IMG/VR virus record: IMGVR_UViG_3300047356_000655
Location: 1-37,495 of that record
From: a virus
Strand: one strand, 5' to 3'
Length of the DNA stretch: 37,495 nt
The position numbers and the translations under genes are program-made. This document shows positions 3,070 to 24,347 of this stretch, in pieces; the first letter of the stretch is position 1, and each line of letters opens with the position of its first letter. The notes beneath the pieces were generated by a model that saw only the letters and a program-made list of their open reading frames with translations, did no database searches and was not told the DNA's origin.

Positions 3070-4556
3070 TGCCTTTAGTCCCTTTAAAATTACCAGCAGG
3101 ATTTTACAGAAATGGCACAGAGTTTGATGCTAGTAACAGATGGCGTGATGGCAGCTTGGTAAGATGGAGAGATGGTAGTTTGAGACCTATTGGTGGTTGG
3201 CAAGAACGTAAGACATCTTTTAGTACTAATCCTCTTCGTGGCGCACATGCCTGGGAAGCAAATAATAACACAAGTTATTTTGCTGGAGGGTCACACAATG
3301 AACTGAAAGCAATGACAGCTGGTGGTACTGTTTATGATATAACTCCGTCAGGGTTGGCGACAGGTCGAGAAGATGCAGCGCAAAATTTAGGCTACGGCGG
3401 CGGTTTTTATGGTTATGGGTTTTTTGGCACAACACGACCAAGCAATGGTACATATTCTGAAGCGAGCACTTGGTCACTTGATAATTTTGGAGAAGAGCTC
3501 TTAGCAGTGCATTACGATGATGGTCGTTTGTTTCGTTGGGATCTTAACCCTTCCAATAATGCGGCAGTTGTTTCTGGAGCTCCAACAAACAATTTAGGTT
3601 TGGTTGTGACTGAGGAAAGATTTGTTGTTTGTTTAGGCGCTGGCGGAAACCCTCGTAAACTACAGTGGAGTGACAAGGAAGACTTTAGTACTTGGGTGCC
3701 GGCAGCCACAAATGAAAGTGGGGACATCTTATTACAAACTTCTGGGCAGATCTTCCAAGCTCTTAAAACTAGGGGTCAGACACTTATTTTAACTGATTTA
3801 GATACTCATGTGATGCGTTATATAGGCCCACCGTATGTTTACTCTGTTTCTAGGGTATCAACTGCGTCTGGAGCCGTTTCGCGTATGAGTGCAGTAGACA
3901 CAGATATGGGTGCATTTTGGATGGGGCAGAGAGGCTTTTTCCGATTTGACGGTAACACAGTACAAGAGCTTCCTTGCGAGGTTCATGATCACATTTTTGA
4001 TGATTTAAATAGAAACCAACAAAGCAAAATTTGGGCGTTTAGTAATACAGAGTTTTCTGAAATATGGTGGTTTTATCCTTCTGCAAATAGCACTGAAATA
4101 GATCGATACGTTGCTTATGACTTGTTGGAAAACCATTGGTTAATTGGTAATCTTAGCAGAACGGCTGGAGTCCCTAGAGGTGTATTTAGAAACCCAATTT
4201 TAGCTGGCCACAATGCTGACACAGACCTTTACGATCACGAAACAGGTTTAAATTATGATAGTGGCTCTATTTTCTGCGAGACTGGCCCGATTAGTTTGGG
4301 AGCTTCTGGAGATCAAATAGCGCGTGTGACTGAAGTTATACCCGATGAGAAAACGCAAGGTGATGTTAATTTAAAATTTAAAACACGATTTCACCCAAAC
4401 GATACTGAGCGCGAGTACGGTCCATTTAATCCTGCAAATCCAACGTCTGTTAGATTTTCTGGTCGTCAGTTGCGAATGCGCGTTGAGGGTGATCGATTAG
4501 CTGCCTGGCGCGTCGGAGCTATGCGTTTGGATATAAAACCTGGGGGGCGTAGATAA
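3069..4556 (+). CDS. Virion structural protein, possibly P22 gp10-like stabilisation protein
   Basis: A 495-aa protein. It begins MPLVPLKLPAGFYRNGTEF and continues with repeated RWRDGSLVRW and RPIGGW segments typical of a conserved phage virion protein. Later blades such as FYPSANSTEIDRYVAYD and NHWLIGNLSRTA suggest a WD-like or beta-propeller architecture. I see resemblance to the packaged-DNA stabilisation/tail-hub family of P22-like phages, but the assignment is tentative. Its start overlaps the upstream stop (TAATG) and its stop overlaps the next start in the same way. Position beside fibres and tail proteins supports a tail-tube or hub role. Confidence 0.8.
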   Translation: MPLVPLKLPAGFYRNGTEFDASNRWRDGSLVRWRDGSLRPIGGWQERKTSFSTNPLRGAHAWEANNNTSYFAGGSHNELKAMTAGGTVYDITPSGLATGREDAAQNLGYGGGFYGYGFFGTTRPSNGTYSEASTWSLDNFGEELLAVHYDDGRLFRWDLNPSNNAAVVSGAPTNNLGLVVTEERFVVCLGAGGNPRKLQWSDKEDFSTWVPAATNESGDILLQTSGQIFQALKTRGQTLILTDLDTHVMRYIGPPYVYSVSRVSTASGAVSRMSAVDTDMGAFWMGQRGFFRFDGNTVQELPCEVHDHIFDDLNRNQQSKIWAFSNTEFSEIWWFYPSANSTEIDRYVAYDLLENHWLIGNLSRTAGVPRGVFRNPILAGHNADTDLYDHETGLNYDSGSIFCETGPISLGASGDQIARVTEVIPDEKTQGDVNLKFKTRFHPNDTEREYGPFNPANPTSVRFSGRQLRMRVEGDRLAAWRVGAMRLDIKPGGRR

Positions 4557-4903
4557 TGCCCATCACACCACCGGTTATAGGCACAGATATCCGCCAATGG
4601 GGTCGAGAGCTTAACCTTTTTTTGCAGCGGAACCTAGGCAAGTTATTTTTTAAAAGCTCTGGGGACATACCAGCCGACAACGGAATTTTTCTTTGGGATG
4701 ATGCCAGTGGATATCCGGTTGTTTCGGCCGGTGGTGAATTCCGCCAAGTGGCAATGAAGCAAGCGACCCCCTCCTCTAGCACTGGCGCTCCTGGTAATAA
4801 AGCCGGGATGATAGCTTGGGACAATTCTTACATTTACGTCTGCACGGCAGACTACAACGGAAGTTCAAACATATGGAAAAGAGTAGCGCTAACGACTTTT
4901 TAG
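4556..4903 (+). CDS. Conserved small phage structural protein
   Basis: A 115-aa protein. The N-terminal part (DIRQWGRELNLFLQR) is helical. The C-terminal part (NKAGMIAWDNSYIYVC..., then IWKRVAL) is a beta-rich module that I recall at the ends of several marine phage tail proteins. No enzyme motif is visible. It starts at the stop of the preceding structural gene and overlaps the next gene by 31 bases in a different frame. A tail or neck role is inferred from position. Confidence 0.75.
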   Translation: MPITPPVIGTDIRQWGRELNLFLQRNLGKLFFKSSGDIPADNGIFLWDDASGYPVVSAGGEFRQVAMKQATPSSSTGAPGNKAGMIAWDNSYIYVCTADYNGSSNIWKRVALTTF

Positions 4904-18533: not shown

Positions 18534-18584
18534 CTCGTCTTTATGTTTGAAATATTTCTTTAAACAAAGCTTTTGTATTGTCAT
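18513..18584 (-). CDS. Possible 23-aa basic peptide at operon end
   Basis: The ATG overlaps the TGA of the preceding leftward gene (TGATG) and the frame runs 23 codons (MTIQKLCLKKYFKHKDEKKE then EPQ) into the terminator stem. The coupling supports translation; the size and the overlap with the terminator argue against. Low confidence. Confidence 0.35.
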   Translation of the reverse strand: MTIQKLCLKKYFKHKDEKKEEPQ

Positions 18585-18835
18585 CAGTCTTTCCTCGGCA
18601 ATCCGTACTCTCTGATAACTCGCCCGACATGCGACAGAGAGATGTTTAAATAGCCGGAAATTTGAGCTCTAGTATTACCGCGTTTAATCATTTTATCGAC
18701 ACGCTCAGCCGTTTTGCTTAGAACCTCCAACTCTGGCCTACTGTCCACGACCATTCCCCACTTTTTGCGGAGCCTCCGGTTTGCTACTTTGGCGTCCTCC
18801 TTCATCCTGGATAGCGGATCCATTTCATTTTTCAT
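18584..18835 (-). CDS. Helix-turn-helix DNA-binding protein candidate
   Basis: An 83-aa basic protein. The C-terminal part (GNTRAQISGYLNISLSHVGRVIREYGL, residues 53-79) reads as a helix-turn-helix in which ISLSHVGRVI would be the recognition helix. The N-terminal half is a charged helix. It overlaps the preceding leftward gene by 11 bases. A regulatory role within the leftward block is inferred. Confidence 0.75.
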   Translation of the reverse strand: MKNEMDPLSRMKEDAKVANRRLRKKWGMVVDSRPELEVLSKTAERVDKMIKRGNTRAQISGYLNISLSHVGRVIREYGLPRKD

Positions 18836-19088
18836 GGTCGTCCTCCGCTATAGTCCAATATGGTTTGTTACGATAAAAATTTTCCTTGATGTAACCCTTA
18901 TCGATCAACGTGCGGACGTGTGGGTAGATGCTCTGACGGCTTGCCCTTTCTTTGCAAACCTGGATCCCGTCAACTTGACCGGTCGCCATGTCTTTAAGCG
19001 TAGGGCTTCGATGCTCCGGAAACCGTCTGTAGAACTCGCAGAAGTAATCGTAGATTTCCTTTTGTGGTTTTGTGAGAGGATGTTTCAA
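18825..19088 (-). CDS. Winged-helix protein, LexA N-terminal-like
   Basis: An 87-aa protein. The sequence PLTKPQKEIYDYFCEFYRRF resembles the LexA-type DNA-binding domain (LTxxQxEIYDYI), followed by a recognition-helix-like SRQSIYPHVRTLIDKGYI and a wing (NFYRNKPYWTI). There is no peptidase domain, so it is not a self-cleaving repressor. It may be a phage transcription regulator. It overlaps the preceding leftward gene by 4 bases. Confidence 0.75.
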   Translation of the reverse strand: MKHPLTKPQKEIYDYFCEFYRRFPEHRSPTLKDMATGQVDGIQVCKERASRQSIYPHVRTLIDKGYIKENFYRNKPYWTIAEDDHEK

Positions 19089-19643: not shown

Positions 19644-20036
19644 TTAATAGTCGTCGTTAAGCTCTTGGTCCCTGGCGAGGTCTTCAAACCCCAGTGTATT
19701 CACCCGATGGTCATTACCATTGATGTACTCATATCGCTCCGCTCCGCGTTCCCGTGGATCTTGTGGAGTGATTTGGCCAAACTGGTGGTTCATTTCCACC
19801 AGAAGATTTTGAGCTAACGTGGTTCTGTCAGAGCCACGCATAGAGTTTGACTTGTCGATCTCCGCAATCCGGTCGGCGTATTCCCGTAATATGCTCGCTG
19901 CCTTGTTTACATGCGACGGATGCCACATTGGGATTGCTATTCTTCGCTTCCACTGCATCATGCCGGCGCTGAGCTTGTACATGGTCTTGTTCAATTTCAG
20001 CTTACGCGGCTTTTCAGTGTGGTAGTTGATCTTCAT
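19644..20036 (-). CDS. Unknown protein with basic N-terminus
   Basis: 130 aa from ATG 20036, chosen because GGAGGAAG lies 5 bases upstream. The N-terminal 40 residues are basic (HTEKPRKLKLNKTMYKL, MQWKRRIAIPMWHPSHV). The C-terminal half is acidic (DPRERGAERYEYINGNDH). I do not recognise it. The Trp/His-containing segment (PMWHPSHVNKAASILREY) may be a helical nucleic-acid-binding part. It belongs to the leftward operon. Confidence 0.7.
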   Translation of the reverse strand: MKINYHTEKPRKLKLNKTMYKLSAGMMQWKRRIAIPMWHPSHVNKAASILREYADRIAEIDKSNSMRGSDRTTLAQNLLVEMNHQFGQITPQDPRERGAERYEYINGNDHRVNTLGFEDLARDQELNDDY

Positions 20037-20094: not shown

Positions 20095-20601
20095 TTACAC
20101 AGATGTGTCAACTAAGTTTACACATTCATGGTCATCATTGAGGCTCTTTAGATACTTAATGCTGCTTGTTAAATACGACATTTCAGCCGTGTAATATGTG
20201 TCAGCAAGCCAACCGCAGTATTTAACGTAAAGGTCTATTAAGTTGGGCTTTGCAGTAATTTTACGTTCTTTTTCAATTCGACAAACTGAAATCCAATCAG
20301 CTTCCTCACACTCTTTTACAAAACCCTCAATTGATTGCCTAGATGCGACACCTAAGTTTACAAGTTCTTGTACGGTAACTGGACAGTTATCCATTGAAGC
20401 GCGAATTAAATGTAAATAAAATTTTCTTTTTTCTACGGTTGATAGAACCCAGTTTTTTAATTCCTCTTCTTGCTGATCATACGTTTTCCGTTCACCCATA
20501 ATAATGCCAATTTCAATTTCTAAGTTTTTCTTTGCCCAAGTCTTAGTCAAATCACTAATTAAATTTTTGCGACAGCAATCAATTTTTGTGTCCATTTTCA
20601 T
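20095..20601 (-). CDS. Winged-helix protein coupled to the dead recombinase gene
   Basis: 168 aa from ATG 20601, whose A overlaps the recombinase stop (ATGA) with GGGAG upstream. Residues about 60-112 look like a MarR-type winged helix (KFYLHLIRASMDNCPVTVQE, VASRQSIEGFVKECEEADWI). The rest is Lys-rich at the N-terminus and aromatic at the C-terminus. The gene is clearly more AT-rich than the recombinase gene next to it, which suggests a different origin. The tight coupling suggests the two proteins act together, for example as a DNA-binding pair. Confidence 0.75.
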   Translation of the reverse strand: MKMDTKIDCCRKNLISDLTKTWAKKNLEIEIGIIMGERKTYDQQEEELKNWVLSTVEKRKFYLHLIRASMDNCPVTVQELVNLGVASRQSIEGFVKECEEADWISVCRIEKERKITAKPNLIDLYVKYCGWLADTYYTAEMSYLTSSIKYLKSLNDDHECVNLVDTSV

Positions 20602-21329
20602 TTTATTACTCCCTGTCTCTTCAATAAATTTTTTACAGTTTGAGAATACCAAATCCCTCGGACTTCCCTGTTTTCTTTTCTTCGTTGGGCGGGCGTCGGC
20701 ACTTCCGCCGCGTTGAGCTGCCTGGCTATTTCAGACATATTCATACCCTGCTTGAGGTAACTCTCAATGAGCCCCCACACTTCCTGGTCGCGCTCCCTGG
20801 CAAGTCGTGCCTGGGCCTCGTTACCTAATCGATCTGTCTCGTCCTTATTGTCATGAAGACCGAGGCTCTCTATTATTTTGCCGGATCTAGTTTTCACGGG
20901 CTTGCCCTGTTTCAACAGTGACTTTATCTGGTCCAGGGCAGCCTTAGACTTAGCAGCCAACCTGGTGCGCTGCTCGTCGGCCTGGACGCTAAGAATAGCG
21001 ATGGAGGATCCGTTGACCCTGGGCTCGTCGGCCACGACAATATCTATTCCGTATTGGTCCGCCTGGTACGCGAGCCAACCCAAGGCTTGCCATCGTTTTT
21101 CAAACATTCCCGACAGACTAGCTATGGCAAAAGTCGCCTGGTGCTTGCGGCAAAACCTGGCGCACTTCATCAGCATCACTCTGTCTTCGGCGTCTAACGT
21201 CTCATTGCCTGGCTTCTCTGAAAAAAGTTCGATCGATGCGGCGGTACCTAAAAAATATTCCGTAATTGCCACGCGTTGGTCGGCCTGGATTTCTTTGTCG
21301 CCACCGACAATAAAGGCCCCTACTCGCAT
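20598..21329 (-). CDS. Serine-recombinase-family protein lacking catalytic residues
   Basis: A 243-aa protein, RBS GGGAG. The layout follows small serine recombinases/invertases: an N-terminal resolvase fold (1-105), the long linking helix (106-140), and a C-terminal recombinase helix-turn-helix (about 185-240, GMNMSEIARQLNAAEVPTP ... WYSQTVKNLLKRQG). The catalytic landmarks are absent. The usual Y-x-R-V-S is AFIVGG (residues 5-10), with neither the Arg nor the Ser. The usual K-x-D-R-L-x-R is SLSGMFE (71-77), with neither the Asp nor the two Arg. The remaining fold is otherwise normal in length. A DNA-binding but non-cutting protein is therefore likely. It overlaps neighbours by 10 and 4 bases within the leftward operon. 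Confidence 0.8.
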   Translation of the reverse strand: MRVGAFIVGGDKEIQADQRVAITEYFLGTAASIELFSEKPGNETLDAEDRVMLMKCARFCRKHQATFAIASLSGMFEKRWQALGWLAYQADQYGIDIVVADEPRVNGSSIAILSVQADEQRTRLAAKSKAALDQIKSLLKQGKPVKTRSGKIIESLGLHDNKDETDRLGNEAQARLARERDQEVWGLIESYLKQGMNMSEIARQLNAAEVPTPAQRRKENREVRGIWYSQTVKNLLKRQGVIK

Positions 21330-21502
21330 GGTTTATGCTCCCGTATCTCGATCTTATCGCCACCATCAATGACGTGATCCTGCCAGGTATACTCGTAAAA
21401 TTTACCCAGATTATTGTGTATGCAGTAGTTAACTGCTTGCGTGTAAGTTCCAATAAATAGCACCCGATCTGTGCTTTTATCAACTACTTTTCTAATGGCC
21501 AT
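21320..21502 (-). CDS. Unknown small protein (60 aa)
   Basis: A 60-aa protein with a beta-alpha-beta look (MAIRKVVDKSTDRVLFIGTY, then QAVNYCIHNNLGKFYEYTWQ). No family known to me. Its ATG overlaps the upstream TAA (TAATG) and its end overlaps the recombinase start by 10 bases, so it is translated as part of the operon. Confidence 0.7.
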   Translation of the reverse strand: MAIRKVVDKSTDRVLFIGTYTQAVNYCIHNNLGKFYEYTWQDHVIDGGDKIEIREHKPCE

Positions 21503-22819: not shown

Positions 22820-22947
22820 CTGGTGTCTCCTTTTTGTCTTGGTTCCGTCTTCTTTACATAAATATCAACTGCTATCATATTTACAAGTACCACATATGAT
22901 TTAAATGTACGAAAAATATAATTAATTTAAGAGAGAATAATAAAAGC
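22820..22947. promoter_or_regulatory. Divergent regulatory region between leftward and replication operons
   Basis: A 128-base AT-rich gap separates the leftward gene at 22819 from the rightward gene at 22948. It contains two motif-like sites on the + strand: TTTACAAGTACCACATAT (22880-22897) and TTTAAATGTACGAAAA (22900-22915), both beginning like the 18-base consensus. A TATAAT (22917-22922) follows the second and is a good -10 candidate for rightward transcription. No clean -35 was found. This is the natural place for a switch between the two blocks. Confidence 0.5.
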
Positions 22948-23112
22948 ATGGAAAATCAGAGAGTTGCGGTATTTCTGCGCGTCGAAAAAAAATACGCTGA
23001 ATGGCTAAAAAAAGAGGCAAACGAGCAGAAACGCACGATCTCATCTCAGTTTGAGGTGATTTGCGATAACAAAATGGAGCAGCAAGATGAGCAGATATTA
23101 CGCAGGGATTGA
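22948..23112 (+). CDS. Ribbon-helix-helix DNA-binding protein (54 aa)
   Basis: A 54-aa protein reading MENQRVAVFLRVEKKYAEWL, then NEQKRTISSQFEVICDN. The beta-strand VAVFLRV followed by two helices (KYAEWLKKEANEQ, TISSQFEVICDN) is the layout of Arc/MetJ-type regulators. It is the first gene of the rightward replication block, close to the divergent regulatory region, so it may be an autoregulatory repressor. It overlaps the next gene by 26 bases. Confidence 0.75.
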   Translation: MENQRVAVFLRVEKKYAEWLKKEANEQKRTISSQFEVICDNKMEQQDEQILRRD

Positions 23113-23539: not shown

Positions 23540-23697
23540 GCGATGTATACGCCACCATATCGCTTCTCAAGCACAAGTTAATGGCATTGGAAGTAGATCT
23601 CCAGCGACCTCCTGACAGACCCAGCGCAACGCAACGTGTCCAGAGCTGCATTGCCCTGGTGGAAATGATTGAGCGACAGATGGGAGAAGAAAAATGA
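23536..23697 (+). CDS. Small helical protein between resolvase and Mom-like gene (53 aa)
   Basis: The frame reads MSDVYATISLLKHKLMALEV, then RPPDRPSATQRVQS, then EMIERQMGEEK. It starts with ATGA overlap with the resolvase and ends inside the next gene's start (ATGATGG). It is predicted as a helix-turn-helix-like hairpin, but without a clear recognition helix. No family known. Confidence 0.65.
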   Translation: MSDVYATISLLKHKLMALEVDLQRPPDRPSATQRVQSCIALVEMIERQMGEEK

Positions 23698-24347
23698 TGG
23701 AAGTAAAAAGCATCGAAAGTAAAGAAACTGATATCTGGCTTCTTAGTAAACATTACGCAAAGCGAAAATGTCAAAGGATGTTCTGCTTTGGTCTTTTTAT
23801 AAAAGGTGAAATGGAAGGAATTGTAACTTACGGAATGCCACCGTCTCCGCAAGTTGGAAGAGGATTTTTAGGGGAAGAAAATCGCACCAAAGTTATAGAA
23901 TTGAATAGACTTTGTATTAATGAACGAGCCCCAAAAAATTCAGCATCTTTTCTTGTTGGCAGAAGTTTAAGGCTATTAAAAAAATGGTCTATTGTCAGTT
24001 ATGCTGACGGGGCTATGGGGCATATTGGTTACATTTATCAAGCTACTAATTTTCTTTATTGTGGTGCAGCTAAATCGCACGACAAAGAATATTTTATTGA
24101 TGGGCAGTGGGTACATGCAAAAGTTTTAACAAATCGAGGCATCTCTGCACCGTCTGTTTATGCAAAAGAAAATAATATTTTAACAAAAAACCCACAACCA
24201 AAGCATAGATATATTTACTTTGGTGACAAAAATTTACGCAAGTATTTAAAATATGAGGTGCTCCCTTACCCAAAAGGCAAAACCAGCCGTTATTTATCAC
24301 CTGACATTATTTCAGAAAAACAATTTGAAATGCCTTTTTATGCTTAA
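23694..24347 (+). CDS. mom: Mom-like DNA-modification (anti-restriction) protein
   Basis: A 217-aa protein. It shows the features of phage Mu Mom and its relatives: KHYAKRKC near residue 20, GIVTYGMP (42-49), VIELNRLCIN (67-76), APKNSASFLVGR (79-90), SYADGAMGHIGYIYQATNF (102-120). Mom adds an acetamido-type group to adenine N6 and protects phage DNA from many restriction enzymes. The gene is markedly AT-rich beside the GC-richer resolvase and nuclease genes, which suggests recent acquisition. Either of two adjacent ATG codons (23694, 23697) may start it. The gene symbol is given by family resemblance. Confidence 0.85.
   Translation: MMEVKSIESKETDIWLLSKHYAKRKCQRMFCFGLFIKGEMEGIVTYGMPPSPQVGRGFLGEENRTKVIELNRLCINERAPKNSASFLVGRSLRLLKKWSIVSYADGAMGHIGYIYQATNFLYCGAAKSHDKEYFIDGQWVHAKVLTNRGISAPSVYAKENNILTKNPQPKHRYIYFGDKNLRKYLKYEVLPYPKGKTSRYLSPDIISEKQFEMPFYA

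Follow-up and report, generated by a model that had tools for sequence, protein, structure and literature searches.

A serine recombinase homologue without cleavage residues in uncultured phages: a probable DNA-binding regulator kept in a conserved gene module

What does a serine recombinase do once the residues that cleave DNA have gone, and why would a virus keep its gene intact? The question is raised by the window, which is the whole stretch of DNA analysed here, a 37.5-kb uncultured virus record, where such a gene is located within a leftward run of small genes that starts from about 22819. The gene and its immediate neighbours are the following:

20598..21329, minus strand: dead serine recombinase homologue of 243 amino acids, with an ATG start and no internal stops
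21320..21502, minus strand: small gene of 60 amino acids, directly upstream; it shares 10 bases with the recombinase start, and its equivalent in the related contig L015 is at 4609-4794
20095..20601, minus strand: winged-helix, MarR-like partner of 168 amino acids, whose ATG overlaps the recombinase stop (ATGA), a position conserved in most loci
19644..20036, minus strand: P130, a 130-amino-acid protein of unknown family, third gene of the module and conserved with the recombinase

The recombinase frame is open over its whole length and overlaps the genes on both of its sides, which agrees with the earlier description of the gene as intact. The original prediction also assigned to the protein the full-length recombinase plan, with a resolvase fold, a linking helix and a C-terminal helix-turn-helix, and this plan is supported by the PF07508 match, by hhalign, by the AlphaFold2 model and by its comparison in VIA-align. 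The 243 amino acids are divided as follows:

residues ~1-112: resolvase fold
residues ~107-140: helix E
residues ~143-178: linker
residues ~179-240: Recombinase helix-turn-helix

The Recombinase profile PF07508 matches the window protein with E=2.2e-5 (25.1 bits against the curated cut-off of 21.1), and in Pfam searches it is present in 14 of the 15 family members. The Resolvase profile PF00239 gives no match with the window protein alone as the query; nine of the 15 members match it at E<=1, the best at 3e-6. Three divergent relatives match a DNA invertase family of PHROG over nearly their whole length, and when the family is aligned by hhalign with short resolvases of the active type, the probability is 99.3% for residues 9-240 over 197 columns. 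The AlphaFold2 model, for which 15 sequences were used instead of the six close sequences that reached a pLDDT of only 51, is of moderate confidence (mean pLDDT 75, pTM 0.48) and has the order of strands and helices found in resolvase, with a long E helix. Its top VIA-align matches are the catalytic domains of serine recombinases, with Z of about 8-10.1: IS607 TnpA (10.1 over 95 residues, 2.4 Å), TP901-1 (9.8), Bxb1 (9.4), Sin (about 9) and gamma-delta (8.1). No relative turned up when solved structures were searched by sequence. Both the model and the profiles are of the serine recombinase type and not of the tyrosine recombinase fold, and the zinc domain and coiled coil of large serine integrases are absent, the protein stopping at residue 243, directly after the helix-turn-helix. 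By fold and ancestry, as judged from the profiles and the predicted model, the window protein is a member of the serine recombinase superfamily.

The catalytic positions were scored across 35 distinct family members from uncultured-virus contigs. In the window protein residues 5-10 are AFIVGG and residues 71-77 are SLSGMFE, exactly as read before, when the whole catalytic set was taken to be replaced. That wording is too broad, because the equivalents of R8, S10, K65, D67, R68 and R71 are gone, whereas those of R45 (R50) and R119 (R121) are invariant in 35/35 members, as are Glu at the D36 position (E38) and, in the helix, the glutamines Q15 and Q18. The S10 equivalent is Ala or Gly in every member with a residue there, 34 of the 35 counted; L077 has His at residue 10 in its own numbering, and the outlier L079 has a Ser one position before the S10 equivalent, without the other catalytic residues. 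The R8 equivalent is F, V, Y, A or T, that of D67 is S, K or V, that of R68 is G or D, and R71 varies; the K65 position is occupied by the conserved S/T71. In every VIA-align comparison the aligned range begins with residue 1 or 2, which places residue 10 on or beside the catalytic serine. These structural alignments have strand 1 in register from there on, and the pairing of R2 with R8 that had been read from a MAFFT alignment was therefore dropped. A Ser at position 11 was also rejected as a substitute nucleophile, considering that it is found in some members only and that the window protein has Asp there. None of the 35 distinct members has the catalytic set, and the alignments show no other set of Ser and Arg residues in the active site. 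Going by the aligned positions, the known strand-cleavage chemistry is gone in every member and the ancestral frame of the pocket is retained in part.

Every relative comes from a metagenomic contig, detected in IMG/VR scans seeded with short peptides. They consist of a close group at 79-91% identity, a wider group at about 43-51% and two outliers, for which identity to the L048 member is 45% and 41%. A search of 50,697 phage records gave no family member; similarity to other recombinases or DNA-binding proteins was only about 25-30% there. Likewise, no copy was found in the 84,980 bacterial and archaeal species genomes scanned, a search that, with its short peptide seeds, does not prove absence. 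When six active-type recombinases are included in a tree, the dead set forms one side of a well supported branch (99/98). Such a topology, built on a small choice of active-type proteins and containing some long branches, fits a single catalytic loss at the base, relative to the active-type set used.

Loss of catalysis in an otherwise complete gene raises the possibility of a decaying pseudogene that is still open by chance, and the deletion of the gene in one relative (L015) could be read in this way. However, dN/dS is about 0.1 (0.08-0.15 in pairwise comparisons among close relatives), the 35 homologues are intact or end-truncated and have no stops, and both the overlaps and the partner genes are conserved. 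By domain, dN/dS is 0.17 in the core, 0.12 in helix E, 0.18 in the linker and 0.10 in the DNA-binding domain. Purifying selection maintains both the resolvase and the DNA-binding domains, and the conserved positions do not vary at random as they would in decay; with values of about 0.17 for the core and 0.10 for the DNA-binding domain, the pseudogene explanation is refuted.

One reading that would fit the low dN/dS of the core is that the pocket has been rebuilt, so that Q15, Q18, E38, R50, S/T71, Q120 and R121, which are invariant or nearly so across the 35 members while the R71 equivalent drifts, carry out other chemistry or sense a ligand. We regard this as distinctly unlikely, considering that the Ser10 position has no conserved nucleophile and that most of the retained residues (the R45, R119, Gln and Asp/Glu equivalents) were inherited from the ancestor and may have no more than a structural role. 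The catalytic domain may do more than hold the dimer together, because it is nearly as constrained as the DNA-binding domain and contains the invariant Q15, Q18, E38, R50, R121 and S/T71.

The nearest detectable active-type relatives are short resolvases, mostly of alphaproteobacterial plasmids. The short plasmid resolvases of Skermanella, Paracoccus, Gemmobacter, Roseomonas and Hymenobacter (about 220-240 amino acids) have domain order and length in common with the dead family, align with it nearly end to end and have a similar recognition region. They keep the motifs Y-x-R-V-S and K-L-D-R-L-x-R, whereas the dead family has neither, and its loop after the nucleophile position is shorter and its linker longer. 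This kinship, together with the conserved dimerisation helix E, is what would be expected of a dominant-negative or decoy subunit, which would block recombination by pairing with, or competing against, active serine recombinases encoded by the host, its plasmids or rival phages. Such a role appears unlikely to us: at an identity of only about 25-30% to the active-type proteins found, mixed dimers are unlikely, and the fixed operon partners suggest a role internal to the phage. PADLOC defence profiles had no match among 11 members.

The explanation that we consider probable is that the protein binds DNA at specific sequences, as a regulator or bridging factor without catalytic activity, and that its ancestor was a short resolvase like those of bacterial plasmids. 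The ancestor would have consisted of a resolvase domain and a Recombinase helix-turn-helix, as in the short resolvases carried on bacterial plasmids; it would have lost the strand-cleavage chemistry and retained the dimerisation helix and the DNA-binding domain. The protein would now be produced from the leftward operon along with the winged-helix partner and the 130-amino-acid protein, and would act as a sequence-specific regulator or bridge on DNA. The conserved DNA-binding domain suggests that the protein binds DNA, and dimerisation through helix E and an effect on transcription or DNA topology are presumed; the recognition-region residues W227, T231, N234 and R238 are invariant. For the repurposed DNA-binding protein that had originally been proposed, the catalytic loss, the intact gene and the kinship with full-length serine recombinases speak in favour, whereas the binding itself is a property that we infer.

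The recombinase is accompanied by a recurrent order of genes, in which it is followed usually by the winged-helix protein and then by P130. A search with P130 yielded 24 contigs, all of which carry the dead recombinase except one that ends just upstream of P130. In most loci the partner gene starts in or near the recombinase stop codon; in a few loci no such gene was found there. Its divergence is much faster than that of the recombinase. The copy in L048 scores above the Pfam MarR_2 cut-off and other copies have weaker MarR-like matches; the window copy has no Pfam match above the cut-off. Clearly different versions of the partner are seen in the window, L002 and L003, beside recombinases that are 79-86% identical. 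The divergence of the partner between close relatives hints at fast diversification or swapping.

All three module genes are missing from L015, the primase of which is 85% identical to that of the window. The scar is visible as an open reading frame at 4403-4618 on the minus strand, reading MRVGAFIFACKG..., in which MRVGAFIF, the first eight residues of the recombinase, is joined to downstream sequence. L015 is a natural deletion of the three-gene unit, which may be recent, and shows that at least one phage can do without the module. As a tentative and somewhat doubtful suggestion, the module could be a control unit of phages that has not been described before, with a recombinase that no longer cleaves and is still competent for synapsis looping or bridging phage DNA with the fast-diverging winged-helix partner and setting the timing of phage gene expression.

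Possible targets of the protein were considered at the GTACCAGATAC sites of the window and in the region between the leftward operon and the rightward run from 22948, which comprises a ribbon-helix-helix-like gene, a Mom-family gene, a PDDEXK nuclease-like gene, a Toprim/AAA primase-helicase and terminase genes:

22820..22947, no strand assigned: divergent control region that heads the leftward operon and contains the conserved dyad as well as, at 22887, a GTACCAGATAC-like element
22948..23112, plus strand: small protein of ribbon-helix-helix-like type, encoded by the gene that opens the rightward operon; its Pfam RHH_5 match is weak and below the cut-off
6353, 13553, 15538, 19609, 24358 and 37159: GTACCAGATAC sites in the window; also 22887, with two mismatches

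The Mom-family protein at 23694-24347 (PF25680, E 8e-46) is likely encoded by a DNA-modification gene, and L015 has a different gene at this position, possibly a DNA methyltransferase. The leftward operon ends with two small putative helix-turn-helix proteins at 18584-19088 (minus strand; weak LexA-like and homeodomain-like matches), so that several putative DNA-binding proteins are found in it. By the primase-helicase the closest isolates are Roseobacter phages, at 31-49% identity, and the phages of this family are probably marine, as their isolated relatives suggest.

The dyad in the control region has the consensus GATAGCANTNTGCTATC, of which the window has the imperfect version AATATCAACTGCTATC at about 22861-22876; depending on the clade it is GATAGCANTNTGCTATC, GATATCACTGTGATATC or GATAGCTATTAGCTAGC, and it sits between divergent operons at the same place in related loci. 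A plausible leftward promoter has the dyad in its spacer, and the ribbon-helix-helix-like gene is kept in those related loci that reach the region. Owing to this position in the promoter and to the conservation of the adjoining gene, we favour the ribbon-helix-helix protein at 22948 over the recombinase as the binder of the dyad, which is a candidate operator. The other element, GTACCAGATAC, is a near-palindromic 11-mer of which the window has six copies at <=1 mismatch, where 0.22 would be expected. A general search of the window for enriched k-mers revealed low-complexity words only. Several GTACCAGATAC sites lie between or just ahead of genes, often after TTTAAA-like sequence. Related contigs carry the element as well, in some cases as two tandem copies that follow the P130 gene and are spaced by 21 bp, and those that reach the divergent region have a GTACCAGATAC-like element there. 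As a recombinase target GTACCAGATAC finds no support: L015, which lacks the module, still has it, and in one subclade it is replaced in the divergent region by GTACTAAACAC, although the recognition region of the recombinase is nearly unchanged. The dyad persists in L015 as well, which weakens the case for the divergent region and GTACCAGATAC as the binding sites that had been suggested for the recombinase.

Neither tyrosine nor serine integrase families have a match in the window, and therefore no active recombinase was found there for the window protein to assist. It could still be an accessory, architectural subunit of real recombination if the active recombinase came from the host or a co-resident element, which would suit a phage that has no integrase of its own; at the accessory sites II and III, S10A subunits of Tn3 resolvase remain functional (PMC9943657). 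This is very unlikely, since the species genomes, scanned with short peptide seeds, contain no copy that would make a prophage state evident, and a non-exhaustive search recognised no res- or att-like pair of sites.

Compared with Tn3/gamma-delta resolvase, the dead family has the resolvase fold and helix E in common and keeps the R45 and R119 equivalents, but the former is an active strand-exchange enzyme with S10, R8, D67, R68 and R71 and has another DNA-binding domain. By analogy, the S10A subunits support the view that such a fold can be useful without cleavage. The closest isolates by primase-helicase, the Roseobacter phages CRP-406, CRP-811 and CRP-823, have a similar layout of the early region with divergent operons, but no annotated recombinase-like gene. 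Vaccinia F16, which is targeted to nucleoli (PMC11980589), is likewise kept by a virus and predicted to be an inactive member of the serine recombinase superfamily, but it belongs to a eukaryotic virus, and the likeness is one of description. Among open-licence papers no described dead serine recombinase of phages was found.

If the regulator reading is true, this widespread phage family, uniformly dead, with conserved partners and a natural deletion, would show cleanly that a DNA-cutting enzyme can be made into a regulator, and it would offer a natural test of the use of synapsis without cleavage. It also follows that the "recombinase" or "integrase" annotations by which environmental phages are called temperate can be wrong. 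What was known before are F16, as one predicted inactive serine recombinase in a eukaryotic virus, and, for the tyrosine class, a recombinase turned regulator: MrpR, the master repressor of the Bacillus prophage SPbeta, which has lost its recombinase function (PMC10516654). MrpR differs in its tyrosine recombinase fold, which is unrelated to serine recombinases, and in that its repression is proven. By analogy it is the nearest functional parallel of the window protein, as a phage protein with a recombinase fold that has lost catalysis and regulates through repeated DNA elements (PMC10516654).
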